A model generated the notes under the pieces. It worked only from the letters and a program-made list of their open reading frames with translations, made no database searches and had not been told where the DNA came from. A DNA stretch of 32,943 bases from a virus: IMG/VR virus record IMGVR_UViG_3300042466_000888, positions 1 through 32,943 of that record; one strand, given 5' to 3'. A program made the position numbers and the translations under genes. Position 1 is the stretch's first letter, and each line of letters opens with the position of its first letter. Positions 8,105-29,979 of the stretch are shown in pieces.

Positions 8105-9052
8105 ATGGAAAAAATACTAGTAGAAAATCCTGGTCGATTCGTCATCTTCCCTATTGAACACAACGATATATGGGAATATTACAAACAACACCAAGCTGCT
8201 TTTTGGACAGCTGAAGAGGTGGATTTAACAAACGACATCAGAGATTGGGAAACATTAACTGATAATGAGAAATACTTCATCAAAAATGTATTATCATTTT
8301 TTGCGGCATCAGACGGGATTGTGAATGAAAACTTGGCAGAAAACTTCTACCGAGAAGTACAATACCCTGAGGCGAAATTCTTTTATGGAATCCAATTGGC
8401 GATGGAAAACATCCACTCACTTATGTACTCACTTTTGATTGACACATACATTAACAACCCGAAAGAGAAAGATGAATGTTTCAACGCAATCGATAGATTA
8501 CCAGCAGTTCAGAAAAAAGCTAAATGGGCATTGGATTGGATTGAAAACGCATCGTTCGCAGAAAGATTAGTTGCGTTCGCAGCGGTCGAAGGTATCTTTT
8601 TTTCAGGATCGTTCTGTTCCATATTTTGGATGAAATCAAGAGGAATAATGCAAGGTTTGTGTAATGCTAACTCACTTATCTTTAAAGATGAGAACTTACA
8701 CTGTGATTTTGCAATTCACTTATTGAATAACCACTTGGAAAATAAACCTTCAGAGAAAAGAATCAAAGAGATTGTATTATCTGCTCTTGAGATTGAAAAG
8801 GAATTTATCACAGAATCACTTCCAGTTTCACTAATAGGAATGAACTCAAACCTTATGAAACAATACCTTGAATTTGTGGTTGACGGATTACTCGTTAAGA
8901 TGGGTTGTGGTAAACAATTCAATGTTGAACAACCGTTCAAATTCATGGAGCAAATTGCTGTTGAAACAAAAGGTAATTTCTTTGAGTCCAGAACTATGGA
9001 ATATCAGAAGGCGAAATTGAACGAAACAATAACATTTACAGACGACTTTTAA
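8105..9052 (+). CDS. nrdB: Ribonucleotide reductase class Ia, beta subunit
   Basis: The R2 subunit carries the diiron-tyrosyl radical cofactor for making deoxynucleotides. All metal ligands are present in order: D70 (AASDGIV), E101 and H104 (MENIHS), E162 (AAVEG), E196 and H199 (KDENLH). The radical tyrosine is Y108, seven residues after E101 as in Escherichia coli NrdB (E115/Y122). The C-terminus ends in TFTDDF, an aromatic-acidic tail of the kind that docks into NrdA. At 315 aa it is slightly shorter than the E. coli protein (376 aa), as is common in phage. The nrdA gene follows after 9 nt, so the subunits are almost certainly coexpressed. Confidence 0.95.
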
Positions 9053-12131: not shown

Positions 12132-12590
12132 ATGGCAAATGGTATTACATATGGTATTTCTTTCCCCTTCGTTGACTCATTCACAGGTAGATACTTGGAT
12201 GTTACAAATTCAACAGAAGGTGAAGTAAGATCAAGTTTGGTTCACTTAATTCTGACAAGAAAAGGGTCAAGATATTTCTTACCTGATTTCGGAACTCGTT
12301 TATATGAGTTTATTTTTGAACCTCTTGATGGTCCTACATTTTCAGATATAGAATCTGAAATACGAGATACTATTGGTAACTACATGCCGAACTTACAAGT
12401 AACCAATATAACAGTAGAACCAGCATCTGCGGGTTTAGAAGATAAGGGTGAAACAATTAATCAATACGGTGAAAGAGAATTTAGGGTTACTAATATTGCT
12501 CAATTAGAACACACAGCAAGAATCAAAATAGATTATAGAATAACAGATTCCGCTTTTGAATCTAGTGATTTTATCATTATCAATATTTAA
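12132..12590 (+). CDS. 25: Baseplate wedge protein, gp25/GPW family
   Basis: This 152-aa protein belongs to the gp25-like family, whose members help initiate sheath assembly at the baseplate. The signature region is residues 33-64: RSSLVHLILTRKGSRYFLPD, then FGTRLYEFIFEP, with the conserved 'G.R...PDFG.RL..F.FEP' pattern. A beta-alpha-beta tail follows (IESEIRDTIGNYMPNLQV and ARIKIDYRI). Length is close to T4 gp25 (132 aa). It is followed after 6 nt by the gp6-like gene, the same order as in T4 (25-6). Confidence 0.9.
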   Translation: MANGITYGISFPFVDSFTGRYLDVTNSTEGEVRSSLVHLILTRKGSRYFLPDFGTRLYEFIFEPLDGPTFSDIESEIRDTIGNYMPNLQVTNITVEPASAGLEDKGETINQYGEREFRVTNIAQLEHTARIKIDYRITDSAFESSDFIIINI

Positions 12591-12596
12591 TAGTAT

Positions 12597-14438
12597 ATGG
12601 CAGAAAAGAAAATATCTTACACGGTCCGAGATTTTCAAGGAGTAAGAACGGAGTTAATTAACTTTACAAGAACCTATTACCCTGATTTAGTTCAAAACTT
12701 TAATGATGCGGGTATTTTCTCTGTTATGTTAGATTTAAATGCTGCAGTAACAGATAACTTAAACTTTCAGATTGATAGGAGTATACAAGAAACTGTACTA
12801 CAGTTTGCACAACAAAAGAATTCAGTATATAATATTGCAAGAACTTACGGATTAAAAATACCAGGTCAAAGACCATCAGTTGCTTTGGTTGATTTCTCAA
12901 TCACGGTTCCGGCTTTTGGTGATAGAGAAGACTTAAGATATTGTGGTGTTTTAAGAAGAGGATCTCAGGTTAATGGAGCTGGACAACCATTTGAAACGGT
13001 ATATGATATTGATTTTGCGTCACCAATAAATGCTGAAGGATCACCAAATAGAGTAAAGATACCTAACTTTGATTCAAGTGGTAAACTAATTAACTACACA
13101 ATTGTTAAAAGAGAAGTTGTTGTTAATGGTATTACTAAAGTGTATAAGAGAGTTATTACTGCTAACGATGCTAGACCTTATTTAGAATTATTCTTACCTG
13201 AGAAAAATGTTTTGGGTATAACAAGTGTTTTATTAAAACAAGGAACACAATACTCAACAATACCTCAACCACAAGAGTTTATTACAGTAGGACCTGATAG
13301 ATGGTTCGAAGTTGATGCTTTAGTACAAGACAGAGTCTTTATTGAGGACCCAACTAAAGTTTCAGATCAACCTGGTATTAAGGTTGGTAGATATATAACA
13401 ACATCTAACAAATTCATATCCGAATATACACCTGAAGGTTTCTGTAAAATGACTTTTGGTGGTGGAAATATATCAGCAGAAGAACAATTAAGAGAATTCG
13501 CTCGTGATGGTAAAGGTTTTGATTTAAGTAGATATACAAACAATTATGCGATGGGTGCGGCTTTGACACCTAATACAACACTATTTGTTCAGTATAGAAT
13601 TGGTGGTGGGTTATCAAGTAATTTAGGTATTAACACTATCAATCAGATCGGTACCGTGTCATTTGCGGTAAACGGTCCTTCAGATTCAGTTAATAGAAGT
13701 GTTATTAATAGTTTGCAGTGTAATAACGTAACCGCAGCAATTGGGGGTGCGAACATACCAACAACTGAAGATGTTAGAAACATGGTCGCATTTAACTTTG
13801 CAGCACAAAACAGAGCTGTTACGGTAAATGACTACAACTCAATCATAAGAACAATGCCTTCTCAGTTTGGTGCACCTGCTAAAGTTGCAATCACAGAAGA
13901 AAATAATAAGATAAAAATTAAAATGTTATCTTACGACACAAGTGGTAGTTTGACAAATGTTATATCAAACACACTTAAACAAAATGTTGCCAATTACCTA
14001 TCCAACTTTAGGATGATAAATGACTATATCTCAATTGAGGCTGCGGAAACAATTGACCTATCGGTAACTGTTGACGTTGTATTAGATAATAGTCAGAATC
14101 AAGGTGCGGTGATTGCCAAAGTGATTCAGCAGGTGAGTGAATTCTTTAACCCGTTGGTTCGAGAATTAGGTCAGAACGTTAATATATCTGAATTAAGGAG
14201 AATACTACAATCGGAAAATGGTATTGTAAGTGTATCTGATGTTCTATTCTTTAACCAAGTTGGAGGTCAGTATTCATCAGCACAAACATCGATGCCGTAT
14301 TCAGATCCATTAACAAGACAGATCCAACCAACGGCTGATACTATATTCGCAACACCAACCCAAACTTACCAAATTAGATACCCAAACAAGGATATTAATG
14401 TAAGGGTATTGAACTTAAAATCGGTAAACTTCTCTTAG
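12597..14438 (+). CDS. 6: Baseplate wedge protein, gp6/baseplate J-like
   Basis: This 613-aa protein is the likely core wedge subunit that forms the ring around the hub. The N-terminus has the family pattern: YTVRDFQGVRTELI, YYPDLVQNFNDAG, then SVMLDLNAAVTDNLNF and an A-Q-Q-K-N-S-V-Y-N-I-A-R helix (residues 8-95). Near residues 395-425 comes VRNMVAFNFAAQNRAVTVND followed by YNSIIRTMPSQFG, the conserved baseplate-J stretch with the 'NR.VT..DY..I' core. The C-terminal part has short alpha/beta repeats (VIAKVIQQVSEFFNPL). Length is close to T4 gp6 (660 aa). It is cotranscribed with the gp25-like gene. Confidence 0.88.
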   Translation: MAEKKISYTVRDFQGVRTELINFTRTYYPDLVQNFNDAGIFSVMLDLNAAVTDNLNFQIDRSIQETVLQFAQQKNSVYNIARTYGLKIPGQRPSVALVDFSITVPAFGDREDLRYCGVLRRGSQVNGAGQPFETVYDIDFASPINAEGSPNRVKIPNFDSSGKLINYTIVKREVVVNGITKVYKRVITANDARPYLELFLPEKNVLGITSVLLKQGTQYSTIPQPQEFITVGPDRWFEVDALVQDRVFIEDPTKVSDQPGIKVGRYITTSNKFISEYTPEGFCKMTFGGGNISAEEQLREFARDGKGFDLSRYTNNYAMGAALTPNTTLFVQYRIGGGLSSNLGINTINQIGTVSFAVNGPSDSVNRSVINSLQCNNVTAAIGGANIPTTEDVRNMVAFNFAAQNRAVTVNDYNSIIRTMPSQFGAPAKVAITEENNKIKIKMLSYDTSGSLTNVISNTLKQNVANYLSNFRMINDYISIEAAETIDLSVTVDVVLDNSQNQGAVIAKVIQQVSEFFNPLVRELGQNVNISELRRILQSENGIVSVSDVLFFNQVGGQYSSAQTSMPYSDPLTRQIQPTADTIFATPTQTYQIRYPNKDINVRVLNLKSVNFS

Positions 14439-14514: not shown

Positions 14515-17500
14515 ATGCCCAAATCATATAGAATAAGAACCGAAGTTGGTGTTGACAAATACATTAACGTCAATTTAGAACAAGATTGGGAATCTTTGGA
14601 AGTATTATCCTTAAAGATTCTTGCTAATGATTTATACACAAGGATGTGTGCTGATTACGGTGTTGTAGTTGGTCGTGTTTTTGTTAATAACGGGTTTGGT
14701 TTACCAAACGCAAAAGTTTCCGTGTTTATCCCTTTGGATGATGCGGATGAAGTTGATCCCGTTATATCAGAGTTATACCCTTACAGAACGATTACGGATA
14801 CTAATGAAGAAGGTTACAGGTATAACTTACTTCCTAAATTACCATCATATCGAGGACACCAATCTACAGGTACATTCCCAAATGTGGGTGATGTATTAAT
14901 GGATGAGTCATATATTGAGGTTTATGACAAATACTACAGATTTACCGTAACAACAAATGAAAGTGGTGACTTTATGATCTTTGGTGTACCAACTGGTACC
15001 CAAACTATTGTAATGGATGTCGACCTTTCAGATATAGGTTGTTTCTCATTAGCGCCACAAGACTTAATCCAACAAGGACTTGCAACTGAAACTCAAGTTA
15101 ACGGATCCACATTTAAAACCTCAACTAACTTAAGAGAATTACCACAAATTAAAAACTTGGTATTTGATGTGGATGTTGCACCATTTTGGGGTGACCAAGA
15201 TTTATGTCAAGTTGGAATTACAAGAGTAGATTTCGATTTAACAAAACAAGCAAACATTAATATTCAACCTACGTCAATCTTTATGGGATCAATTATCTCA
15301 ACAACAAATGACGATGCGTTAAAGGTGGGTTGTAAACCTAAAAATAATACAGGTAACTTATGTGAATTAGTTTCAGGACCTGGCGAAATACAGGCGATTA
15401 GACATACGATCAATTCTGATGAAAATGGTTTACCGATATTAGAAGTTTATCAAGTAGAACAAGAAGGGAAAGTTATTGATCCTGACGGTACATATGTACT
15501 CAACGTTCCGATGAACCTGGATTACGTATTCACTAATGAATTCGGAGAACAAGTATTGTCAGACGACCCAAGTAAAGGGATACCAACGAAGGGTAAATAT
15601 AGATTTAAGTTCAAGTGGCAAAACGAAGAAGGACTACAAAATAGCTTCCAAAGGGCAAATTTCTTGGTACCTAATATTAAAGAATATGGATGGTCAAATT
15701 CTGCGAATGATCCATTTGATCAAGCAACACAATCATATACCTATCAAATATCTGCGGGTGCGATATCAGGTGTGACTCAAATACAATCATTTGGTTTTGA
15801 TGCTGGTATTTCATTAGATAATGCAATAAACAGCTCGTCATATGAGGTATATTTAAATGGGGTTGAATATACAGGATCACTTAATTCAATACCGTTTAAC
15901 ATTGGTGATACAATACAAATTGTTGGTACGCCAATTAATCCTAACGTAACTCAAGACTTTTCGTTTACGGTTTATCCTGAAACATTATTTAATTTATTAA
16001 AATCTTACGCATTTAGTTTAGATTGGGATGATTATGTCAATCCCCAAGAAGCGATTGATTGTGAGGATACATTCTACGAATTCAAGTACAATAAGGTATA
16101 TACGACTGCCATGTTCTTAGATAGATACAAGAACGGTATTGGTAGAGCAAAACATTTAGGTATAAAAGAAATTGATAACAGATCGTGTAAGTCTACCGTA
16201 AATACATTCCCTGTGAATGATATTATACGAAACTTTGATCCGATATTCTTCGTATTCAATATACTAATTAATATTCTAACATTTCCAATATTAGTTTTAT
16301 TATTTGTTGCTCACTTTATTTCGTTTATTTGGCCAATACTAAAATATGTGTTGATAGTGTTGAGTATTTACTTAACTTATGACGCCGCGGTTGCATTATT
16401 TAATGCAATTCAAAGTGGTATACAATTAATAAGTGCGGGAGCAGGGGTTTTCCAAGTGGGTCTTGGTGTTACTGTTAACGTTGGTTTTATTTTGGAGGGT
16501 ATACGTTTAATTTTCGCAGGTATATTCCTAATTGCCGCGGCAACATTTAAACTTATACTAGCCGCAGCATTTTTAGCTTTTGCGGTTGTGGCGGCAATTA
16601 AAGTTAAAGGGTTCCCAAGAATTGCATTACCTATGATTGCATATCCTGATTGTACAAGTTGTGATTGTGATTGTGGAAATGCGGAACAAGATGATAATTT
16701 TGACATTAATAGTGTTAATGATGAACTTGAGGCTGCGGCTCAAACAGGTGGAAGTAGTTTTTATGATACAACATTAGTACCATCTCTTAGTATTATCGCA
16801 CCTGTAAACTCAGCAGGATCTTACGAAATAGAGCATCCTAATTTAGTCGGACCCAATGATGACCCAACTCAAGATGAATACCAGTGTGGTGGAATAGGGC
16901 CATATAAAAACTTAGCTAATTTAATAGGTGATGAAGATATTAGTCAAAATTTAGCGGTTCAAGCGTCTTTAGATTTGGCTAGAGTCATTTCAGGATACGA
17001 TGTACTATCATCAACTAATCCTAACCGTCTATATGTTAATGAACAATATCTACTACACGCACCACAACCTTTTTTATGGTCTGCGGATAAACAATTATTC
17101 CCAACCTATGACCTTGTTGCAGACGCTAGATATTTTGCATACCCACTATCTAAAACTTTCCCACAACAGCTAAACGACTTCAATACAAGAGATAAATATT
17201 TTAATTTTGGAGGGGCTGTTAATCAAATTAAAACTACTGTTAACCCAAGTCTAGGGTCCGAATTTTTCTTGGATCAAGTTGTGGTAATTTTGATGAGTGC
17301 CGGTGCGACAAGTCAAATAGGTGTAGGTAATGTTTGCTCATTCCAAAATCCTAACTATTTGGATACTCAGTCATCCAATCGTCTGTTAAACTTAACAGGT
17401 GCGACACTTAACCAATTCGGTACAAATTCAATTACAGGTACAACGTTAATTGGTAATTCAGTTCCAAGTCAAATAAGTTATGCGAACCCAACGAATCCGA

Positions 17501-20094
17501 CTCAAAATCTTCCGGCAAACATTGTCCTTAGTTTACCTGAGGTTAGCCAACTACCAGTACAAGGTAATCCTAACGTAGAACAGAGTTATTTACAATATGC
17601 GACAGACGTGGAATACTTCCAACTCATAACAGGATTAACTGTAAATGACTTTATAGGTATTGATCAATTAAATACTGGTTTATTCCCTAACAATTATTTG
17701 AGACATAGTGTGTCCATTGCAACTCCAGACTGTCCTGTAGGGTCTAATAATTTTAGTTCGTGGACAATTAATAATGTTATAACCTTAATGGGTGGATGGG
17801 AAGGTTATGAAGTTTGTATCTTCGTAAGAGGTGTCGACCCATTCACACCAAAACAAACTATAAAATATGATTTATCTAAGGTATTTGGTTTCACATCGTT
17901 AAATGGTTCGGTACAGATAGAAGGTTCTTATTATTTGAATAGACCAATACAAGGATATTCATCGTTTGCTTCAGGAAATAAACCTGTTAGTCACGTCAGT
18001 TCGACTAACAACACGTCAAACTTATATTTCCCTTCATTTGCATTTACACCTGATGTTACTAAATTTACTGCGTTCACATCTAACTTACCTTATTTCTATT
18101 TGTGTACCGACGATACTAACGTTTCGGGTATTGGGTCATATACTCCTGTTAATACAGGTTGGCAGACTACATCAAGTTTGACTACAGGAGGTAATTTATA
18201 TCAATTACTGGCAAGTTCTAACTTCACAATACCGAGACAACAATCTGCACCGACACAATATGTTGGTGGTGGATCATTCTTGGCGTGGAATCTAAATATA
18301 CCATTTAACTATACTTTATACACAAACTCAGGTGGTGGTTGTGATCAAGATTGTCAAAAAGATCAATATTACTCAACTCAAAATGGTTGGTTTAATAACA
18401 CAAATGTTGGTGGTAACATTTCAGTTCTTTATTCACCTGCTTATTATCGATATGGTTTAACACCTGTGACCTTCCAATCTACTAATATAGTAATGAGGAG
18501 TGATAGGTTACCTACATCAACTAAAGTGGAAAACGGACTTCAAAATAGAACGGGATATGCATTACACCAAAATAATAACTTTACGGTTTACAATGCGAGT
18601 GGTATTGCTTCTGAACCTACAATTTCTGCCGGGTTAGATTTACCAAGTGGTGAACAACAAGATGAGGATGCATTTGTATCAGGTCTTACCGATACGTTAA
18701 CTTGTGAAGGTATGGTCCCATTAGAATGTTATAGTGGTTCAGGAAGTAATGTTGGTGTTATACCGTCTAGTCAATGCTCCATTCCCGCTAACCGAATGGT
18801 TAATGGTTGTTATTGTTTGTTAAATAAAACTTATTTGGCTGAATATCCTGAAGACGCTAGATTGTTCTTAGAATGGAAAACAAGATTTACCATGAACTTT
18901 GCTGCTTGTAGAGGTATTTTTGCTCAAGTCTTCCAAAACAATTGGATTAACGGAGTACTATATATGTTCAACTTTAACAAGAGAACAACCTTCAGTTCGA
19001 TCGGTAATCCTAATTATAATTATTGTGAACAAGTTATTGTGTTTAATGACCTAAATAATAGTTTTTATTATAGATCATCACCATGGAGTGGTACTAAATT
19101 TATAGGTAAAAATTCACCTTCATTTAACTCCTCAAACCCTTTCGCCGACTTCCCTGGTTTCGGATACAATAAAAAACAAATCCAATTTCCAACGACGGTG
19201 GTTGATTTAGGTCCGAGAGATGCGTTTATTAATGAGATTTGTTGTGGTGGAATAGATGGGTTTGGTGCGTATTTTGCTGACCAAATGAAAGCAACATCAT
19301 ACCAAGATAACTCAGACATTATTCAGTTAGGGTTTTTATCTAGAATTTTAAATGATGGTGTTAGACAAAGAATGATACCTCTTAAGGTTGGTGACGACTC
19401 AAGTGAAGGACAAGGAGTAATCCAATTCTTCAATAGTACAAGAGGTGGTTATAGAATTGATGGTGATTGGGCTCAAATGTTATCAATAAATTCTGAGTGG
19501 AAGGTATTACCATTTATTACTGAAAACGTACCAAGTAACAACTATATATTCTTTGGTGATAATGGTGCTACAGGTAATCAAATTAAACCTGTAATGGGAT
19601 TATTTTTCCAAACACCAACACCTAATCTAAATTATAGAAAAATCGAATCTCCGGGAATCCAAACGTATAGTACATCACCACTTATTGAGGAAAAATTTGG
19701 TTATTCTAAGTCACAAGTTGTACCTCACTACAAATGGTCTTTAAAGACAAGTAACCCTACCTCTAATATATTTGGAACTGAAGATAACAACTGGGTTACT
19801 GATAATGTTTATAACGGAGGGTTTTTTAGTGACAAGTATCAAGAATTAGATTTTACTAATTTAAATGAGAAATATATAACTCAAAGTACAAGATTAGGTT
19901 ATATCTCTAATTACGTTAACGGAATACCAACACCACAACCCTCAATTAATACAATTATACAAGGACAACCAGTTGGTACTAATCAACAAGCAATCGTTGT
20001 CGGTGCTCCTTACCACTTCTATTTTGGATTGAATAATGGTAAGACCGCAGTAGATAGATTCTATAAACTTTATGTATCAACCGCTGAATTGTAA
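14515..20094 (+). CDS. Giant baseplate-block structural protein with multi-pass hydrophobic segment (1859 aa)
   Basis: I do not recognise the whole protein. Residues about 45-165 look like a carboxypeptidase-regulatory or transthyretin-like beta sandwich (GRVFVNNGFGLPNAKVSVF, then TDTNEEGYRYNLLP). Residues 577-695 are almost wholly hydrophobic and can be split into about four membrane-spanning stretches (for example ILTFPILVLLFVAHFISF and LIFAGIFLIAAA). Directly after them comes a Cys cluster C713, C716, C718, C720 (CTSCDCDCG). The rest (about 740-1859) is Asn/Thr/Ser/Gly-rich and beta-like, as in tail proteins, with more Cys groups (GGGCDQDCQKD; NEICCGG). It stands between the gp6-like gene and further tail genes, where T4 has gene 7, but length and content differ. 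Its stop overlaps the next ATG (TAATG). Virion role is inferred from context. Confidence 0.8.
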   Translation: MPKSYRIRTEVGVDKYINVNLEQDWESLEVLSLKILANDLYTRMCADYGVVVGRVFVNNGFGLPNAKVSVFIPLDDADEVDPVISELYPYRTITDTNEEGYRYNLLPKLPSYRGHQSTGTFPNVGDVLMDESYIEVYDKYYRFTVTTNESGDFMIFGVPTGTQTIVMDVDLSDIGCFSLAPQDLIQQGLATETQVNGSTFKTSTNLRELPQIKNLVFDVDVAPFWGDQDLCQVGITRVDFDLTKQANINIQPTSIFMGSIISTTNDDALKVGCKPKNNTGNLCELVSGPGEIQAIRHTINSDENGLPILEVYQVEQEGKVIDPDGTYVLNVPMNLDYVFTNEFGEQVLSDDPSKGIPTKGKYRFKFKWQNEEGLQNSFQRANFLVPNIKEYGWSNSANDPFDQATQSYTYQISAGAISGVTQIQSFGFDAGISLDNAINSSSYEVYLNGVEYTGSLNSIPFNIGDTIQIVGTPINPNVTQDFSFTVYPETLFNLLKSYAFSLDWDDYVNPQEAIDCEDTFYEFKYNKVYTTAMFLDRYKNGIGRAKHLGIKEIDNRSCKSTVNTFPVNDIIRNFDPIFFVFNILINILTFPILVLLFVAHFISFIWPILKYVLIVLSIYLTYDAAVALFNAIQSGIQLISAGAGVFQVGLGVTVNVGFILEGIRLIFAGIFLIAAATFKLILAAAFLAFAVVAAIKVKGFPRIALPMIAYPDCTSCDCDCGNAEQDDNFDINSVNDELEAAAQTGGSSFYDTTLVPSLSIIAPVNSAGSYEIEHPNLVGPNDDPTQDEYQCGGIGPYKNLANLIGDEDISQNLAVQASLDLARVISGYDVLSSTNPNRLYVNEQYLLHAPQPFLWSADKQLFPTYDLVADARYFAYPLSKTFPQQLNDFNTRDKYFNFGGAVNQIKTTVNPSLGSEFFLDQVVVILMSAGATSQIGVGNVCSFQNPNYLDTQSSNRLLNLTGATLNQFGTNSITGTTLIGNSVPSQISYANPTNPTQNLPANIVLSLPEVSQLPVQGNPNVEQSYLQYATDVEYFQLITGLTVNDFIGIDQLNTGLFPNNYLRHSVSIATPDCPVGSNNFSSWTINNVITLMGGWEGYEVCIFVRGVDPFTPKQTIKYDLSKVFGFTSLNGSVQIEGSYYLNRPIQGYSSFASGNKPVSHVSSTNNTSNLYFPSFAFTPDVTKFTAFTSNLPYFYLCTDDTNVSGIGSYTPVNTGWQTTSSLTTGGNLYQLLASSNFTIPRQQSAPTQYVGGGSFLAWNLNIPFNYTLYTNSGGGCDQDCQKDQYYSTQNGWFNNTNVGGNISVLYSPAYYRYGLTPVTFQSTNIVMRSDRLPTSTKVENGLQNRTGYALHQNNNFTVYNASGIASEPTISAGLDLPSGEQQDEDAFVSGLTDTLTCEGMVPLECYSGSGSNVGVIPSSQCSIPANRMVNGCYCLLNKTYLAEYPEDARLFLEWKTRFTMNFAACRGIFAQVFQNNWINGVLYMFNFNKRTTFSSIGNPNYNYCEQVIVFNDLNNSFYYRSSPWSGTKFIGKNSPSFNSSNPFADFPGFGYNKKQIQFPTTVVDLGPRDAFINEICCGGIDGFGAYFADQMKATSYQDNSDIIQLGFLSRILNDGVRQRMIPLKVGDDSSEGQGVIQFFNSTRGGYRIDGDWAQMLSINSEWKVLPFITENVPSNNYIFFGDNGATGNQIKPVMGLFFQTPTPNLNYRKIESPGIQTYSTSPLIEEKFGYSKSQVVPHYKWSLKTSNPTSNIFGTEDNNWVTDNVYNGGFFSDKYQELDFTNLNEKYITQSTRLGYISNYVNGIPTPQPSINTIIQGQPVGTNQQAIVVGAPYHFYFGLNNGKTAVDRFYKLYVSTAEL

Positions 20095-21893
20095 TGACCG
20101 TAGACCCAACAGAAAGAATAATATTATCTACACAGAGGTATAAGTCAGCACCAAGAACTGATCAATTTATAAATGTACCTTTAGCTCAAACTTCTAAAGA
20201 TTTAGTTGAATACGATAGAAGTGTTGATTTGAATTTGGTAAATGTTTTTGAGGAAGAAAGACAATTATCTAGTATTTTCAGACCAGTTACTAAGTTTACA
20301 ATTTTATTTGAAAATGGAATTTCTGGATCAACAACTTATGTCCCATACAGAGACAATCTGTACTACACAAATGCTGTCGGGAACGCTCAAGACTATTATT
20401 ATCAAGGTAATCAACCATCAGTTCCACCATTACCCACTAATCAAAATGTGCCGTGGGACGGTTTACCACAATACCCTGAGTTTGATTTTATAAGAACTGA
20501 TAATAGTGTCATTGGTTACACACAACCACCCAATAATCACCTTACATTTAAGAATGTTAGTGCAACAACATACAATTGGTCTCATCATATAAGTTATCCA
20601 TATGCTAATGACTTTACAAAAACATTATTCACGGTTGAACCCGATTCACCTATAACATGGTCTTGGGTTGTGTCGAATGGAATACCTTATTATGTGGTTG
20701 CAGGGGCTAACCTACAAAGAAACAACATTGTTTTTAAATCCCCGATGAAACACGGATTATCGGTTGGTGAATATGTTTATTTATCTGTAAATTATAATGG
20801 TAATAGCATGTTCCAAGTAACGTCTTTAGGTGACGGAGCTTCAGGATCTGACGAATATATTTTTAATATTAGAAATGTCGGATATACAGGAACCACTTTC
20901 CAAACCAACACCCAAGGAACGTTTAGAAGAGTGGTAAACGCTGCAAATTCAGCAGATACTATAAGTCAGTACTATATCCGTAAACACAGAATAATAACTA
21001 ACCCTGATTGTGCAGTTTTGGTAAACGCGGGTTTTGAAAGAAATATTTATGGTGATAAAAAGAAATGTGAAATTAAAGTTTTAACACCAAATCAAAAACA
21101 AAGAACGTCAATTAAAGAAGGTAGTAGATCTTATACTTTATCGTTTAATTGTGATATCGATATAAATGGTTTAAGAGACAATCAAAATAGACCACTTACA
21201 CAACTTTTCTTCACGACAATTTGGAGAGGTTATTTTGGTTGGACAAGAAACATGAAACAAGGATGGGAATTCAACACATTTTTACAAGATAATAAACCTC
21301 AAACTTGGTGGGATCAAAATAACCCCAATTCAAATACAAATATCCCACAGGGGCAATATACTTCTTTAGTAGGTTCAGGACCTTTCTTTTATAACCAACT
21401 TTTACAATCAGGTGATACTATTGACGGAGATTTTTGCGAGTGGAATAGTTTTAATCAACTTGAGAGAGTTATATCAACATACCAACACAAGATTAAATTT
21501 AATCAAAATTGGTTCGGGATTTTTAATAATGGTTTAAATAGTACTAATCAAATTGGATACTTCTACCAACCACATAACCCAGTACAGATTGGTGCGTTTT
21601 CTGACTATATAGAAGAGGGTAGCTCAACTACTGTTGTGGGTATACCACCATACGCTTATTACTCAACAACTAACGCTTTGTTTAGATGGAGAGATCTATA
21701 TCCGTATGGGTTTGTGGATACTGATGGTATTGGGGTCGATTTTCCATTTATGAATGGTGCTCACTATCCATATATTAATACGATTTTTAGAATTACACCT
21801 GAAAATTATAACATACCAAGTGATTACGCTCAAGGTAAAGTTCCACAGAACATAAACACAATTGAGGATCCATTAGTAGATGAATGCGAATAA
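20094..21893 (+). CDS. Baseplate or tail structural protein, unrecognised (599 aa)
   Basis: It starts in the TAATG overlap with the preceding gene, so the two are probably translated in a coupled way. The product is rich in Asn, Tyr, Gly and aromatic residues, typical of beta-structured tail proteins, and has no membrane segment or catalytic motif. The N-terminus (TERIILSTQRYKSAPRTDQF) and the DLNLVNVFEEERQLSS stretch look helical and may anchor it in the baseplate. A middle region contains TSIKEGSRSYTLSFNCDIDI and WRGYFGWTRNMKQGW. T4 gp8 occupies a comparable place, but I see no convincing similarity. Virion role is inferred from operon context. Confidence 0.75.
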   Translation: MTVDPTERIILSTQRYKSAPRTDQFINVPLAQTSKDLVEYDRSVDLNLVNVFEEERQLSSIFRPVTKFTILFENGISGSTTYVPYRDNLYYTNAVGNAQDYYYQGNQPSVPPLPTNQNVPWDGLPQYPEFDFIRTDNSVIGYTQPPNNHLTFKNVSATTYNWSHHISYPYANDFTKTLFTVEPDSPITWSWVVSNGIPYYVVAGANLQRNNIVFKSPMKHGLSVGEYVYLSVNYNGNSMFQVTSLGDGASGSDEYIFNIRNVGYTGTTFQTNTQGTFRRVVNAANSADTISQYYIRKHRIITNPDCAVLVNAGFERNIYGDKKKCEIKVLTPNQKQRTSIKEGSRSYTLSFNCDIDINGLRDNQNRPLTQLFFTTIWRGYFGWTRNMKQGWEFNTFLQDNKPQTWWDQNNPNSNTNIPQGQYTSLVGSGPFFYNQLLQSGDTIDGDFCEWNSFNQLERVISTYQHKIKFNQNWFGIFNNGLNSTNQIGYFYQPHNPVQIGAFSDYIEEGSSTTVVGIPPYAYYSTTNALFRWRDLYPYGFVDTDGIGVDFPFMNGAHYPYINTIFRITPENYNIPSDYAQGKVPQNINTIEDPLVDECE

Positions 21894-22683
21894 AGTTAAA
21901 ATATTAAAAACCGATTTAGATCAGTCTATTAATATCCCAATTAATATGCAATGGGATTTTACTGGTAGAGATGAGGCGATAAGTGAATACGAAACAAGTA
22001 TATTACAACAAGTAATTGGTGTCGCGACAGATTTTGAAATTGCGAGGTTTGCTCACAACGTATTCCCCAATTTTGATTCTGCGATTGATTATGAGTTTTA
22101 TTTTTATGATTATACCCAACCTATCACAGCAACTACTATCGGGTCATGGGATGTTTCATATTTAGATCTTGGGTTCAGTGCGGAACAAGTATATTACTAT
22201 AGTAAACCATTCACAAAGTCATTCTTTAAGTTAGACCTTTTCGATAGTGATAATGAAAAGACACAACAATTGTACCTATCACTTATTTTACCGGTACAAC
22301 AAGGTAGAACTGAAACGGTGATATTATCACCTTTAATTGGTCCGATCGAAATTAAAAAACCTAAGATGGTTTTGGATTATATTGGGGATAAAGAAGGATT
22401 CTTCATTTATTGGTTAAGAAGTAGAGAGATTATAAATGTTGATACTTTCTATATGACTGCAAGTTTCTTTGATGCCAGAACAGGAGTCTTCAAAAGAATG
22501 ACTAATACCAAACAAGATTTGATTATACCTGACAAATTTACTTTTGATAACTCTACATATTTCTATTATAGAGTAGATTTGGATTATAACCAAAAAACAT
22601 ACGAAGTGTTTTCAACCCAAACCAACCTAAGAGTTGGTGATTCAACAACACCGATAAAATGGTATGAATATGTTAACCCATAA
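21880..22683 (+). CDS. Tail or baseplate structural protein, unrecognised (267 aa)
   Basis: The start overlaps the preceding gene by 14 nt and the stop overlaps the next start by one base, so it is embedded in a coupled string of tail genes. The protein is mostly beta with many Phe/Tyr residues (YEFYFYDYTQP; FFIYWLRSREI). There are no cysteines, no signal peptide and no membrane helix. The early segment SINIPINMQWDFTGRDEAIS is moderately conserved-looking. No family was recognised. A structural role is inferred from its neighbours. Confidence 0.75.
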   Translation: MNANKVKILKTDLDQSINIPINMQWDFTGRDEAISEYETSILQQVIGVATDFEIARFAHNVFPNFDSAIDYEFYFYDYTQPITATTIGSWDVSYLDLGFSAEQVYYYSKPFTKSFFKLDLFDSDNEKTQQLYLSLILPVQQGRTETVILSPLIGPIEIKKPKMVLDYIGDKEGFFIYWLRSREIINVDTFYMTASFFDARTGVFKRMTNTKQDLIIPDKFTFDNSTYFYYRVDLDYNQKTYEVFSTQTNLRVGDSTTPIKWYEYVNP

Positions 22684-23888: not shown

Positions 23889-24794
23889 ATGGCAACAGGT
23901 AATTACGGAACTATAAGACCATCAGATGTTAGTCCTGAAGACGTTGAAATCGTTATGGTTTATACTGAATCAAGAGACGATACTCAAAACTTCACATTAA
24001 CAACCCTGAATGCTCAAGATGTGTTGAGACCATACTTCAATAATGCAGAGACAGGAGGAAGTAATGTCGAGATATTAGGTGGTTTATACAACCTAAAACT
24101 TCCTGCGGACCAATTCAATAGATTAGGTATATATACGTTAATGATTAGACCAGCACAAATCAGAACAACAATTACTGATTGTGGTGTGTTATCAGCATTA
24201 CCCAATGTGAAAGGTCTTGTGATAGACCTTAATAATGTACCTGTTGAATATCGAAACAAATTCGTTAATCAAGGTTTAGTTGGTTTTAGAGTTGAGTATT
24301 TAAATCCTGATGGGACAAAAATACCTAATTTCTTTAGAATCATTACCTCATCGTTCTATTGTGAACCTGTGGTGCAAAACCTTACAAACACAATCCAAAA
24401 ATCTATTAGATATGCTTATGTTGAAGGTGCGACTAATTTATTATTCTGTACTTTATCACCTTCGTCATCACCAACAAACAAACCAAGTGCAACACCATTT
24501 ATAGGTCAACCAAATCAAAGTATTATTATCTCAAATACGTACTTTAATCCTATAAGTACTGAAATTGAGATCGTAGATCAAGACATCTCAACACTTGCGA
24601 TTGCTCTTTACGGTAATCAAACTAAATCTATCGAAGACGGTATTTACACTATTTACGATTCTGACAATAATATCTACAAACAATACAACTTGTATGAAAT
24701 TAAAGACCAGTTCAATACACTTCTTTATGAAGTTAGACAAGATCGTGGTGATAACATCGACTTTTCTAAAGCATTTAACAATATTACAGCTTAA
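23889..24794 (+). CDS. Tail or baseplate structural protein, unrecognised (301 aa)
   Basis: This complete gene is preceded by the TATTTATA motif, and its stop overlaps the next start (TAATG). The N-terminus MATGNYGTIRPSDVSPEDVE resembles the short extended leaders of baseplate subunits. Residues about 30-170 look like a beta sandwich (GLYNLKLPADQFNRLGIYTL; GLVGFRVEYLNPDGTKIPNF). A Ser/Pro-rich linker (SPSSSPTNKPSATPF) separates it from a C-terminal alpha/beta part ending KAFNNITA. It has no enzyme motif. It probably forms part of the baseplate with the 995-aa protein encoded next to it. Confidence 0.75.
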   Translation: MATGNYGTIRPSDVSPEDVEIVMVYTESRDDTQNFTLTTLNAQDVLRPYFNNAETGGSNVEILGGLYNLKLPADQFNRLGIYTLMIRPAQIRTTITDCGVLSALPNVKGLVIDLNNVPVEYRNKFVNQGLVGFRVEYLNPDGTKIPNFFRIITSSFYCEPVVQNLTNTIQKSIRYAYVEGATNLLFCTLSPSSSPTNKPSATPFIGQPNQSIIISNTYFNPISTEIEIVDQDISTLAIALYGNQTKSIEDGIYTIYDSDNNIYKQYNLYEIKDQFNTLLYEVRQDRGDNIDFSKAFNNITA

Positions 24795-27781
24795 TGGCAA
24801 CACAGAAATTTACTTGTCCGCCTCAAAGTAGTGCAGCAAATCAATTCTCTAACAATTTAGTTGGGGTACAACTTGTTGCGGGCGGAGGTTTGACACAAGC
24901 AAATTTCAACTTCACTACAAACATAACGGAAAAACAAAATAGAACTTTTACGATAGGTGCATTTTCAGACCCTATCAATTTGGAGTCTATTAATATTGAA
25001 ACAAATGTTGAAGCTGCTGAAATTTTAGCGGCGAACTACCGAGTTTATCCTAACTACGACTTAAGTCAGGTTACTAACTTTACTCAATACGGATCCTTAG
25101 TAAAAAGGTTCTCAACCTCTATTACGAAGATCATTAATTTTTTCCCTGCCGGTTTAGAGGTACCACCTCAGACTGACAAATTTATTAATCAAGAAACCGC
25201 ATTTAATATTATATACGATTCGGTGGAAGATGACACAACGTTGGAAATACACCTTTCCTCAATAAGAAACCCATTTGAAATTGATTTTTCACAAAACGCA
25301 GAAATCAATATGATGTATAATGAGAATCAGGTTTCGTCTTTGAGAAATATGAAGTTAGAGTATAAGAAATATGTTCTTTTTATTAATGGGCAACAATACC
25401 CACTTAACTATCTATACCCAACCAATAGTGATTCGACAAGTCTTAAAATAATTGTAGATGGAAACCCATTCAGTGGTAATCAAATATCATATGATTACTT
25501 AGTAATTAGACCAAACGATTTCGAAGTGAATAAAGTATTCAATTTGAACTTCGACCCCGTTGAAAATTTCCTACTTAATAGACGAATTACACCTGTATAC
25601 ACCGCAAAATTTGTTGTACCAAAAGAATTAGAGGATGGTACGTTTGCGATCTCAAGTGAATACGCAACATTCCCTCAAGCGGGTATTTGGAATTTAGATA
25701 TCGTTACGGTTCGTTTTGATAACTACTTAGTACAAATTAATGACTTCGCTATAAACCTAGATCAGTACAATACGAACTTAATCTCAAGGTTTATGACAAC
25801 AGGTGCGTTAAAAGAGTTCGACACACCAGATCAGAGATTTGAAAAATTATTACAGATATATGGTAGAAGTTTCGATGAAACAAAATCATTTATTTCAGCG
25901 TTAGGTAATATGAATAGTGTTCATTATACCATACAAAATGACATACCATCACAATTATTAAAAAACTTAGCTCAAACATTAGGTTGGGTTACTAATTTCT
26001 CACCAATCTCAAATGAGGAATTATTACAGGCAGTATTCTCAACACAACCAAATACATTTCCAGGTTTACAAATAGGACAGACACCTGAGGAGATTAACTA
26101 TCAATTCTATAGAAACTTAATATTAAATTCTGCTTACCTATTTAAATCAAAGGGTACAAGAAAGTCTATTGAATGTCTTTTGAGAATGGTTGGTGCACCT
26201 GAAGCATTAATTGACTTTCATGAATATGTCTATGTTGCTGACCAACGAATTAATATGAGAGAATTTGACCAACAATACTTTCAGATTACAGGTGGTACCT
26301 TGAACCTACAAATTCCGGTATTACAAGGAGATAATACATTCTCAATACAAGGAGTTCAATATACAGGATTTACAACGGTTTCAGTTAACTCAAATGTATT
26401 AACGGTAAGAGAAGATTACCCTGTAGATGCTTTTGGATGCCCTCAAATGCCAATAGCGACCGAGACTTATTACTTCCAAATAGGGGGCGGTTGGTTCGAG
26501 TCAACTCCACAACATAGAATGCCTGAGTTTGCAGTACCAACTAACTTGGTATTCACAGGTAATAACCCTAACTATCAAACTCAACTATTACCATTTAATT
26601 ATGGTGAAGAATATCTACAAAGATATAGACAATTCCCATACATGAATTTAGGATTTAAGTTGAGAAGAGTTGCCGACAACAAAAAAAGTTGGGTAGATAC
26701 CGATCCATTCTTAAGAACAAGTTTTGATGGTGGATTTAATTCGTATTATGAAGCGGGTGAAGATTGTTTGGTATTGAATGTGAAAAACGTTGACATTATG
26801 ATGAATCCAGCACAAGGATTAGTTTATGATGTTTGGACGATGTCAAGACAATTTAATTTCCCAATTCCTGAACAAGGTTTGTTCTACACACCACCTTCAC
26901 CTTGTAATATACCAAACCCATACCCTAAGTTAGGTGGTATAGATTGGACGACAATTGTACCAAAACCAAAACAAAAAACATTCTTTGAGTTTGCTCAAAC
27001 ATTTTGGAGAAACATGGTTAACACAAGAAACAGACAAACTATCACAGATGGTAAGACTGGAGGTTACCCAACACTCCAATCAATTTATTGGAGATATTTA
27101 GAATCTCAAAAATTAGCGGGAATTCAAAACGATAACTTCACATATCAAACGATGATTGATTATGTGAATGGAATGGGTAATTATTGGATTAGAATGGTGG
27201 AACAAATGGTTCCGGCAACAACAATATGGAATACAGGTGTTAGATTAGAAAACTCGGTTCTTCACAGACAAAAGTATGTGTGGAGAAGACAAGAAGGATG
27301 TAAGTTTATTCCGGTACCTTGTAAACCTTGTACTCTATCAACACAGCTGTATGTACTTGATTGTCCTGTACAAGAAGTGATTTGTGGTTTGTATCCTTGG
27401 AATAATGACCCATTGATTACATCTTTTGGTGTTGTATTAAATCAAACATTACAAACATTCTTTAGTCAAAACGGACTGAACTCAACAGTTTGTTCTCTTA
27501 ATACCGTTTCATCAACTTGGTATGTTGATATTAGACAGAACGGAGTTTTAATAGAACAATATGGTTTCTTTAATGGTGTTGGACCAAGCCAATTCCCAAC
27601 CGACACTCAGTGGGTGGATGCTTTAGGAATAGCTTTAGGTAATTTACTAACATCAGGATATAGTTATAATATTGATGAGGATAGTGAAAATGTAGTCGTA
27701 TTTAATAATAATTGTGTGCCTAATTTTGACGACTTCCAAATAAACGTAGGAATAGAATTCGAAATATTTTGTAACCAATAA
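24794..27781 (+). CDS. Large baseplate wedge protein with tail-protein-I (gp7-like) region (995 aa)
   Basis: Residues about 340-480 have the arrangement of the P2 gpI / tail-protein-I family, the counterparts of T4 gp7: FEKLLQIYGRSFDETKSFI, NDIPSQLLKNLAQTLGW, then LILNSAYLFKSKGTRKSIEC and LLRMVGAPEALIDF. The 'F..KGT..SI..LL...G' pattern is characteristic. With the gp6-like protein it would complete the wedge core. Residues before this are beta-rich and those after include aromatic tail-like sequence. A Cys-rich stretch lies near residues 835-865 (GCKFIPVPCKPC, then VLDCPVQEVICG), possibly a metal site. The last about 100 residues resemble the C-terminus of the next gene product. The assignment to gp7 is an inference by pattern and place. 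Confidence 0.78.
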   Translation: MATQKFTCPPQSSAANQFSNNLVGVQLVAGGGLTQANFNFTTNITEKQNRTFTIGAFSDPINLESINIETNVEAAEILAANYRVYPNYDLSQVTNFTQYGSLVKRFSTSITKIINFFPAGLEVPPQTDKFINQETAFNIIYDSVEDDTTLEIHLSSIRNPFEIDFSQNAEINMMYNENQVSSLRNMKLEYKKYVLFINGQQYPLNYLYPTNSDSTSLKIIVDGNPFSGNQISYDYLVIRPNDFEVNKVFNLNFDPVENFLLNRRITPVYTAKFVVPKELEDGTFAISSEYATFPQAGIWNLDIVTVRFDNYLVQINDFAINLDQYNTNLISRFMTTGALKEFDTPDQRFEKLLQIYGRSFDETKSFISALGNMNSVHYTIQNDIPSQLLKNLAQTLGWVTNFSPISNEELLQAVFSTQPNTFPGLQIGQTPEEINYQFYRNLILNSAYLFKSKGTRKSIECLLRMVGAPEALIDFHEYVYVADQRINMREFDQQYFQITGGTLNLQIPVLQGDNTFSIQGVQYTGFTTVSVNSNVLTVREDYPVDAFGCPQMPIATETYYFQIGGGWFESTPQHRMPEFAVPTNLVFTGNNPNYQTQLLPFNYGEEYLQRYRQFPYMNLGFKLRRVADNKKSWVDTDPFLRTSFDGGFNSYYEAGEDCLVLNVKNVDIMMNPAQGLVYDVWTMSRQFNFPIPEQGLFYTPPSPCNIPNPYPKLGGIDWTTIVPKPKQKTFFEFAQTFWRNMVNTRNRQTITDGKTGGYPTLQSIYWRYLESQKLAGIQNDNFTYQTMIDYVNGMGNYWIRMVEQMVPATTIWNTGVRLENSVLHRQKYVWRRQEGCKFIPVPCKPCTLSTQLYVLDCPVQEVICGLYPWNNDPLITSFGVVLNQTLQTFFSQNGLNSTVCSLNTVSSTWYVDIRQNGVLIEQYGFFNGVGPSQFPTDTQWVDALGIALGNLLTSGYSYNIDEDSENVVVFNNNCVPNFDDFQINVGIEFEIFCNQ

Positions 27782-29979
27782 TGATTCAAGTATTTAACTT
27801 TAATATAACAGGAGATTGTAGTAATACAGGGAGTGGTGCGGTATCGTTTGATATTACTGGAACAACCCCAACAGTCGCACCTTTTAGTATTACAGATGCG
27901 ACAGGTCAAGGGTTATTACCCTTATCTGCAGCAACATTAACATATACGGTTACAGGATTAACAGGTGGAACTTATTACGCAACGATTGCCGATTCATCTT
28001 CCGAAAAGGTAGTCCAAAACATATACATATCGACGGGTACAACCGCAACAATAGATTCTACAGCACCATCTTGTGGTTTAGATAATGGGGTTATTACAGG
28101 GTTTACAAGTGCGGTTTATGGAAACTCAACATTTGAATTATATGATGGTGATAATAACTATATTACATCGGCAATAACACCAACGACGTATTATGAATTT
28201 ACAAACCTTTCTGCGGGAACTTATTATATTGTAGCAAACGATGGTGGTGGATGTACCGGTATTACATCATCTGTCATTTTAACAACATCAACAGGATTTA
28301 CATTTGGTGGATATGTTGTTGATGATGCGAGTTGTATTGGTAGTGGTAGTGGTAAAATATTTATCACAGGACTTACACCTCCGGTCTCAGCATATACAAT
28401 AAATTGGAGTTCAAATGTAGGGTCACAAACTGGTACCACAGTAACAGGATTGACGGGAGGTACTTATATCGTCTCAATAGAGAATCCATCGGGATGTACA
28501 GGATCTCAGTCATTTTTTGTAAATACGGTAGCACCTTTAGAGTCTGCGGGTTTTATAACAATATCACAACCAAGTTGTTTTGCGAATGACGGTGAAGTTG
28601 AGTTCCTAATTGCAAATGGTACCGCTCCTTATTTCTTTAGTGGGTCATCTGGTCAGGTTGAAATAACATTTGATACCTCGGTAACATTTACAGGATTATC
28701 ATCGGGTGCTTATTCATTCTTAGTAACTGATGCTGGTTTATGTACCATTTATGATTCTGTGAGTTTAATAACACCTAATTCATTTAGTACGGTTGCAATT
28801 AATACGACAAATTCGTTCTGTTCATCAAACGATGGATCTATTCAGGTTTTAGTGGATAATGGGTTGAGTAATGTTAATAACCTCCTAACAACAATTTCAG
28901 GATCAACGGGAATACAACAAAGCGGAACAATAGGAAACCCAAACCAAACATTCAACGGACTACCTAATGGTAATTATTTGGTTACCGTGACTTCAGCGGG
29001 TTGTACATATACCGCAACAACAACCATAAGCTCTACAAATTTATATAGTGCAACAACGGCAGTTACAGGAACTACTTGCGGTAGTAATAACGGCAGAATA
29101 GAGGTTACAGTTTCAACAGGAGGTACGTTACCCTATCAATTTACTTTGACAGGACCAACAGGACCAAACCCGTCAACTATTAATAATCCTGTTGGTGTGT
29201 TCACCAACCTAAAAGGTGGTAATTATACCTTGACAGTTCAAGATTCGGGATTACCGACATGTGTCCAAAGTTTTACGATTTATGTTGATGTTAGTGATCC
29301 TGTTTATTTTAATTTATTCCCATCACAACCTTTAAATGGTAATGATGGATCAATTACAAGTTTTATTTATTCAGGAGAACCACCATTTAATTTGATTTGG
29401 AGTGGTGGAAGTATAAATGGTTACACAGGAAGTACAGTCACAGGTTTAACAGCAGACACATATAGTTTAACTTGTACTGATGCTAGTGGTTGTTCACTTA
29501 CAAAATCTGTAATACTAACAGGAACTAAAAAATATGTTGATTATCGATATTATACAATTTGTGAAGAACAATTCTTTGATAGTGGATTGGTGCAGAAAAA
29601 ATCAATAAGATCCATGTATTTGGAAGGTTTTAATGATCTTACAAGTGGGGATACAAATTGTATAATTAATTCTGCGGACTTCACAATATATGCCGAGGTG
29701 GGGGGACAATCGGCACAAACCGAGTTCTATACCTCAACAGGTACTACCGATTACCCAAGTGACACGGTTTGGGCTGATGCGATCGTAAATATATTAGAAG
29801 ATTTTGTTGGTATTTCTGGTGTTACCGTAGATATCATATCAAATAGAATTACAATAACGGCAGCTTGTGAAGACTTAAAGAAGAATTGTGGTAATCAACC
29901 CATAAATCCATTACAAGATAGTGAAATAAAAGTTAATTTATTAATTGATTACGACATATCTTGTGTTAGTTGTAGTTAA
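27781..29979 (+). CDS. Tail protein with about seven SprB-like repeats (732 aa)
   Basis: The first about 600 residues are tandem 70-90-residue beta-sandwich repeats. The usual unit is a Cys near the start, an N-D-G-x-I or similar strand, a G-x-x-P-Y/F segment, then 'L..GTY...V.DA.GC' and a final strand. Clear examples are VTGLTGGTYIVSIENPSGCT, FTGLSSGAYSFLVTDAGLCT and VTGLTADTYSLTCTDASGCS. This is the pattern of SprB repeats in flavobacterial gliding adhesins. The first repeat lacks the second Cys. The C-terminal about 100 residues form a different domain shared with the preceding protein. No signal peptide is present, so it is not a secreted host protein. It most likely forms a fibre, spike or adhesin of the tail. 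The start overlaps the previous stop by one base. Confidence 0.8.
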   Translation: MIQVFNFNITGDCSNTGSGAVSFDITGTTPTVAPFSITDATGQGLLPLSAATLTYTVTGLTGGTYYATIADSSSEKVVQNIYISTGTTATIDSTAPSCGLDNGVITGFTSAVYGNSTFELYDGDNNYITSAITPTTYYEFTNLSAGTYYIVANDGGGCTGITSSVILTTSTGFTFGGYVVDDASCIGSGSGKIFITGLTPPVSAYTINWSSNVGSQTGTTVTGLTGGTYIVSIENPSGCTGSQSFFVNTVAPLESAGFITISQPSCFANDGEVEFLIANGTAPYFFSGSSGQVEITFDTSVTFTGLSSGAYSFLVTDAGLCTIYDSVSLITPNSFSTVAINTTNSFCSSNDGSIQVLVDNGLSNVNNLLTTISGSTGIQQSGTIGNPNQTFNGLPNGNYLVTVTSAGCTYTATTTISSTNLYSATTAVTGTTCGSNNGRIEVTVSTGGTLPYQFTLTGPTGPNPSTINNPVGVFTNLKGGNYTLTVQDSGLPTCVQSFTIYVDVSDPVYFNLFPSQPLNGNDGSITSFIYSGEPPFNLIWSGGSINGYTGSTVTGLTADTYSLTCTDASGCSLTKSVILTGTKKYVDYRYYTICEEQFFDSGLVQKKSIRSMYLEGFNDLTSGDTNCIINSADFTIYAEVGGQSAQTEFYTSTGTTDYPSDTVWADAIVNILEDFVGISGVTVDIISNRITITAACEDLKKNCGNQPINPLQDSEIKVNLLIDYDISCVSCS

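Follow-up and report, generated by a model that had tools for sequence, protein, structure and literature searches.

A membrane-like hydrophobic block with an exchangeable second half in a giant protein encoded beside the baseplate genes gp25 and gp6 of uncultured phages

The passage of DNA across the inner membrane is poorly understood for contractile phages, and a virus record of 32,943 bases (IMG/VR record IMGVR_UViG_3300042466_000888, analyzed over its whole length and called the window here) raises the question of what a long membrane-like segment does in a giant protein encoded next to baseplate genes. By reading, and with one RecA match below threshold, the upstream part of the window appears to carry replication-type genes (RecA/UvsX-like, DnaB-like, and ribonucleotide-reductase-like). 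These are followed by the genes for a gp25-like baseplate wedge protein (12132..12590; PF04965, 2.3e-12; phrog_261, 2.5e-18), a gp6-like wedge protein of the Baseplate_J type (12597..14438; phrog_219, 8.7e-21; PF04865, 2.9e-6), the giant protein of 1,859 aa (14515..20094), and further probable tail proteins. Among the latter, p599 (20094..21893) and p267 (21880..22683) are without a family match and occur in 149 and 124 loci of the family described below, and p995 (24794..27781) likely fills the gpI/gp7 slot of the wedge. The genes with coordinates above, and all parts of the giant protein named below, are on the plus strand. The gene's place beside gp25 and gp6 bears out a first-pass annotation that had assigned it to a baseplate block. 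Positions 27781-29979 encode a 732-aa protein of short repeats which, as an impression from its sequence, recalls Bacteroidota surface adhesins.

Positions 16243-16674 correspond to residues 577-720 of ORF 14515-20094. Using a Kyte-Doolittle window of 19 aa and a threshold of >=1.6, we found four hydropathy windows in the giant protein (580-598, 602-620, 642-660, and 665-683) and none elsewhere in it; of the 22 ORFs of the record that were scanned, just one other, 8105-9052, has a hydropathy window, a single one. The mean hydropathy of residues 577-695 is 1.876, which none of 10,000 shuffles reached (best shuffle, 1.21), and the clustered hydropathy of this stretch is significant. Two other measures were rejected as indicators of significance, namely the number of hydropathy windows (whole-protein shuffles average 2.4 and go up to 9) and the low charge (5 charged positions in 119 residues; shuffle median 18, minimum 3). 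A cruder energy-like score gave three segments, not four. The highest 119-residue mean among 21 T4 tail proteins was 0.56 (gp29), and four of these proteins (gp7, gp11, gp18, and gp29) have one hydropathy window each. The block is followed by a CxxCxCxC motif (Cys 713, 716, 718, and 720; 16651..16674), so that both the membrane-like stretch and the four cysteines are present as initially described.

We looked for relatives of the giant protein in viral contigs. A first scan yielded 258 relatives and retained 80 of them, and three more scans widened the set; since at most 80 loci were taken per scan (three scans found 258, 194, and 83 relatives), the family size is a lower bound. Members of the family are common among viral contigs from the environment, a single scan giving at least 258. 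Among the 155 full-length sequences that we aligned, fragments excluded, are the copy from the window itself and duplicates from contigs fetched more than once; clustering at 95% left 79 representatives, on which most counts are based. Two further alignments held 61 of the 79 representatives, hand-picked (A3), and 31 p995 sequences (A4). The search for homologues that the first-pass annotation had proposed thus succeeded in viral contigs and not in named phages, where tblastn at E<=1e-5, which distant relatives can escape, gave no relative. One pattern scan of prokaryote genomes, which distant relatives can likewise escape, gave 14 stretches that fit a pattern, none of them a relative. The giant protein had no match in PHROGs, Pfam, NCBIfam, or PDB sequences, and its family was not described in the titles or abstract beginnings of the open-access papers searched.

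Conservation is high at and around the start of the block. The upstream flank, residues 501-576 (16015..16242), is among the best-conserved parts, with a mean pairwise identity of 0.84 versus 0.58 for the whole protein, and contains the invariant C516 and C558. The first hydrophobic helix, residues 577-612 (16243..16350), is present in 79/79 representatives and displays a polar stripe composed of N582 and H600 (both in 79/79) and N586 (70/79); N582 and H600 are 18 residues apart and therefore lie on one helix face. All four cysteines of the CxxCxCxC motif are kept in 155/155 aligned sequences and 79/79 representatives. In total, 19 Cys of the giant protein are invariant in the 79 representatives, and they are spread over the protein.

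The second half of the block, residues 613-697 (16351..16605), is variable and is missing in 12/79 representatives. The spacing between K559 and C713 is 141-159 residues in 67/79, 84 in 9, and 70-71 in 3. The 12 short forms have one hydropathy window each, and the long forms have two (12 sequences), three (28), four (26), or five (1). The initial estimate of about four spans consequently suits the window's copy, which has four hydropathy windows, and not the family, where they are no conserved unit and 12/79 keep one segment. The two short classes form separate clades, each with a support of 1.0, in a tree made without the block and rooted at its midpoint, which hence gives no direction of loss versus gain. 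Overall, the block is a real, conserved, and unusual feature.

We then considered how it may fold. AF2, which has no knowledge of membranes, was run with the 79 sequences and modeled residues 1-1180 with a mean pLDDT of 66. Within the block, it placed helices at residues 576-646 and 656-696 (block means 46-76), and the flanks 518-576 and 702-729 had a confidence below 50. A hairpin is plausible on this model, and its placement relative to the rest of the giant protein carries low model confidence. The modeling called for at the outset thus produced two helices and left the membrane state neither proven nor refuted. As anticipated, long beta-rich regions flank the block in the models. Residues 751-1364 (16765..18606) are confidently modeled and beta-rich, without known fold match; fold searches with residues 700-1859 gave no usable match (none at E<=0.001, one chain with Z 3.0). 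The first half of the protein had no Foldseek match at E<=0.001, and one domain-level likeness was found by VIA-align: the N-terminal domain, residues 45-250 (14647..15264), is similar in fold to transthyretin and to carboxypeptidase-regulatory domains (best Z 9.6, rmsd 2.3, 79 aligned). The tail-knob fold of the phi29 gp9 type was absent from the best fold-search matches, for which the models queried were long and multi-domain. A domain at residues ~403-487 (window ~15721-15975) recurs in an ORF of 345-352 aa in 6/9 related contigs (E 9e-10 to 2e-6); this ORF lies upstream of the sheath gene in the 129.8-kb relative G001, where the domain is at 45258-45509, and the domain seems duplicated in the 2,015-aa relative in contig G004.

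Helix moments calculated at 100 degrees were significant for residues 577-612 (p 0.01), 613-646 (p 0.003), and 656-696 (0/5,000 shuffles). The helices of the block are thus amphipathic, and a buried bundle would show such periodicity too. It is possible, though on balance we doubt it, that the block is a structural hairpin buried in the baseplate, where it would act as a hydrophobic zipper that joins its copies to each other or to a different tail protein, without ever meeting a bilayer; the second half would then vary, on the same doubtful footing, because its virion partner varies. This would agree with the long AF2 helices, which are unbroken at the expected span ends, and with T4 gp7, which belongs to the soluble baseplate despite its hydrophobic segment and a note of a predicted integral membrane domain on its record. 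Three observations argue against burial: a mean of 1.88 over 119 residues compares with at most 0.56 in the 21 T4 tail proteins; the hairpin tip, residues 644-657, is without K or R in 67/67 long forms (and uncharged in 47/67); and the orthologs of gp25, gp6, p599, p267, p391, and p301 are without matching replacement in close pairs of phages, as detailed below. As for the flanks of the hairpin, residues 541-572 are net positive in 79/79 and residues 696-711 are net positive in 67/79. Such a tip and such flanks look like those of a hairpin that would enter a bilayer tip first, for which colicin hairpins offer a comparison.

The genetic setting bears on which machine the protein belongs to. Relatives of gp25, gp6, p599, p267, p391, p301, and p995 are present in 102-178 of the fetched loci, counted as presence rather than as gene order locus by locus and only in loci long enough for each gene. 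A sheath match was found in 8/10 larger related contigs, twice above the Pfam cut-off, and PHROGs recognize sheath, tube, and gp53-like genes in G001. Given the gp25 and gp6 neighbors, the recurring neighbor set, and these sheath matches, the giant protein is probably a component of a contractile tail. One of the related contigs (L157, or G003; 296,330 bases) has 174 bases common to both ends at 99.4% identity, so its genome may be circular or complete, though classed as linear.

Three adjoining proteins have a common N-terminal signature, which reads DKYINVNL in the giant protein (residues 14-21; 14554..14577), DQFINVPL in p599, and DQSINIPI in p267. When a related contig (68,172 residues) was searched with the corresponding regular expression, four matches appeared, all inside this cluster. 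The exact signature is kept in 49/72 giant-protein, 5/65 p599, and 4/58 p267 relatives, and a looser consensus is found in the three families alike. This common signature perhaps hints at like docking sites for the three proteins.

The giant protein had been taken for a baseplate wedge protein, and its position directly after gp6 suggests gp7, the gene of which is also directly after gp6 in T4. The block would then be the helix hairpin of a gp7 core bundle, a reading that we consider very improbable. T4 gp7 has one hydrophobic segment, conserved in 7/7 gp7 sequences compared, and the T4 and XM1 wedges are described as using helical hairpins. However, hhalign gave no support for a relation between the giant protein and T4 gp7, whether the latter was entered singly or as a profile of seven sequences (a distant homology can escape), and a short look-alike of the block and the gp7 segment, noticed by eye, was rejected for want of hhalign support. 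Moreover, Tail_P2_I (PF09684) does not fall on the giant protein and falls on p995 in 6/9 related contigs (residues ~439-477), always below the cut-off (E 0.009-0.14) and, in one of the six, on end-cut ORFs taken for p995. It was also seen below the cut-off on the p995 relative in LR756508, and not in the other three contigs, in Flavobacterium phage immuto, or in Microcystis phage Mel-JY01; the same search in 14 control genomes gave a match in 6, of which 2 were above the cut-off. The large protein encoded after gp6 in Mel-JY01 is a relative of p995 (hmmsearch 1.8e-8 in a small set; hhalign 90%) and not of the giant protein, and the relation of p995 is less clear to those of immuto (hhalign 68%) and LR756508 (40%). 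The alignment of P2 gpI with p995 matches the expected motif without being significant. Comparison of the giant protein with the large post-gp6 proteins of immuto and Mel-JY01 gave no relation, the best E of a 42-sequence giant-protein profile against the ORFs of immuto, Mel-JY01, and LR756508 being 0.63. The giant protein is therefore probably not a gp7-type wedge protein, and p995 is the better candidate for that slot, although the evidence is weak.

Nor did we retain the identification of the giant protein as a tape measure, as its gene comes after gp6, a long way from the tube gene, and its model is mostly beta-rich. In G001, the sheath (1,116 aa), the tube (162 aa), and the proteins of 610 aa, 1,690 aa, and 2,348 aa (phrog_52) have no membrane window. 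Of 111 chosen ORFs of G001, those at cuts between fetched stretches being incomplete, 8 contain any membrane window; the giant protein leads with four, and two large ORFs further along, without an assigned role, show a single weak one each.

The variability of the second half proved to have a particular form. The long forms comprise 11 sequence types, and the short class was counted as a twelfth. With 20 type changes on the tree, against a minimum of 11 and a shuffled mean of 52.9, the types mostly follow descent, with extra switches. In loci L023 and L024, a stretch at residues ~623-677 is replaced between DNA flanks that are 98.3% and 97.1% identical, and in L161 and L169, the replaced stretch (residues ~624-687) lies between flanks identical at 97.8% and 91.9%. 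Inside these stretches, the DNA identity per 20-codon window is 0.32-0.52 and 0.42-0.47, respectively, which is too low beside such flanks to be explained by point changes. Close-pair comparison places the exchanged core of the second half at residues ~623-677 (16381-16545). An assembly error is possible for the L023/L024 pair, represented by one contig each; one side of the L169 case is supported by L160, L161, and L166, and L062/L080 and L043/L050 are further cases of replacement.

In 47 pairs of giant proteins at least 85% identical, 85-residue windows with an identity of <=55% were confined to residues 579-714. With windows of 60 columns, the block region leads (7/47 pairs, in three groups of related phages), and replacements are also seen at ~768-850 and ~1039-1135, in 1-5 pairs. 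The orthologs of gp25, gp6, p599, p267, p391, and p301 had no matching replacement among close pairs, and those of p995 had one window replaced, in two pairs. Short and long forms also meet in close relatives: the gp6, p599, p267, and p391 proteins of L065 (short; supported by L069) and L023 (long) are 99-100% identical, their giant proteins 70%, and the strong DNA similarity is interrupted from residue ~605 to ~1240. L054 and L039, one short and one long, have near-identical gp6 (99-100%) and giant proteins 69-70% identical. These results demonstrate that the second half of the block is exchanged between related phages as a cassette.

We propose that the giant protein would be built near the baseplate of a contractile tail and carry a helical hairpin active on membranes. 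Within the virion, the conserved flanks would hold the hairpin, and contraction would expose it, leading to its entry into the host envelope. Several copies would pack via the polar stripe N582, N586, and H600 and would contribute to tube anchoring or to a path for DNA or ions. The first helix would be the constant working part. The second half would face a host factor that varies, for example a protein of the inner membrane or a defense that blocks injection, so that phages exchange this half. Virion presence, sequestration, insertion, oligomerization, channel formation, and host-driven exchange are steps that we infer. In our estimation, it is about as likely as not that the block is a hairpin that inserts into the envelope, has one exchangeable half, and acts in the manner of the phi29 gp9 loop or T5 pb2. 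Insertion is supported by the clustered hydropathy, the invariant first helix, the tip free of K and R, the positive flanks, the AF2 helices, and the cassette swaps, and by the sheath-to-hub proteins of G001, which have no membrane window. It is weakened by the amphipathic helices, the 12/79 relatives without the second half, the low AF2 confidence in the block, the replacement of other regions of the giant protein with 60-column windows, and the two G001 ORFs with weak membrane windows.

A membrane contact could also serve assembly, with the block tethering the tail or its baseplate to the inner membrane of the host and playing no part in entry. Membrane-bound T4 baseplates were described in old reports, and a multi-pass segment would insert during translation. 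We nevertheless hold this to be unlikely, as such an anchor poorly explains the exchange of the cassette, and the flanks of the block are large beta-rich regions of the tail type.

Known tail proteins offer partial parallels to an envelope-inserting hairpin. The pore-forming L-loops of the phi29 tail knob protein gp9 are described as assembling into a barrel of helices that is hydrophobic on its outside (PMC6542822). Gp9 resembles the giant protein in being rich in beta structure and in carrying a hydrophobic stretch, in gp9 a loop that leaves the knob on genome release according to the same report (PMC6542822), and by hydropathy and AF2 secondary structure the giant protein indeed has a long hydrophobic insertion in a beta-rich protein. 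Unlike it, phi29 has a short non-contractile tail, and no sequence relation was found between the two proteins. T5 pb2 has a 46-residue hydrophobic stretch for which channel formation was proposed (PMC10038345); pb2 is, however, the tape measure of a siphophage, whereas the segment described here belongs to a protein of the baseplate locus, and no such segment occurs in the G001 proteins from sheath to hub. For T4 gp7, the record states that the "C-terminus is predicted integral membrane domain" (GenBank AF158101), which makes the statement of the first-pass annotation that no described wedge protein has this architecture too strong. The parallel is nonetheless limited: the gp7 segment, at residues 886-904, counts against uniqueness, yet it spans ~20 residues only, with no 119-residue block and no profile match.

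The exchange of the second half may also have a counterpart. As reported for siphophages, the tape-measure type correlates with ManYZ dependence, and escape from variants of SNIPE, an inner-membrane nuclease that targets the tape measure, maps to the same protein (PMC13190303). In light of this SNIPE/ManYZ parallel, the exchange of the second half is consistent with contact with a host factor that varies. Lambda-type tape measures are described as having a region that decides dependence on the inner-membrane proteins ManYZ and SNIPE escape, with one phage differing just there. Those are, however, tape measures of siphophages. The block may work like known membrane-penetrating tail segments, without a demonstrated membership in their families. 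What is new is where it is encoded, in the baseplate locus of a contractile tail, and that its inner half can be exchanged.

The CxxCxCxC motif had been proposed to bind metal and hold the hydrophobic segment closed until triggered. A lid on a four-span channel is not specifically indicated, since the cysteines are kept in the relatives with the shortest blocks too and invariant Cys are spread over the giant protein (19) and also occur in p995 (9). Rather than a gate, the motif may form a structural site, with either a bound metal or disulfides. In phage Milano, the baseplate is described as disulfide-linked, with bonds that must break for contraction (PMC10811340); its tail proteins are Cys-rich like the giant protein.

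L023/L024, the giant proteins of which differ mainly in the cassette, and L065/L023, which oppose a short and a long form, are natural test pairs. For a large clade of uncultured phages with contractile tails, we tentatively suggest that the membrane-penetrating element may be carried by a protein of the baseplate locus and not by the tape measure, the inner half of this element being a cassette that would set the inner-membrane partner used or the injection-blocking defense escaped. If true, these phages would have an entry element outside the tape measure, with constant residues N582, H600, and W606 and an exchangeable part.
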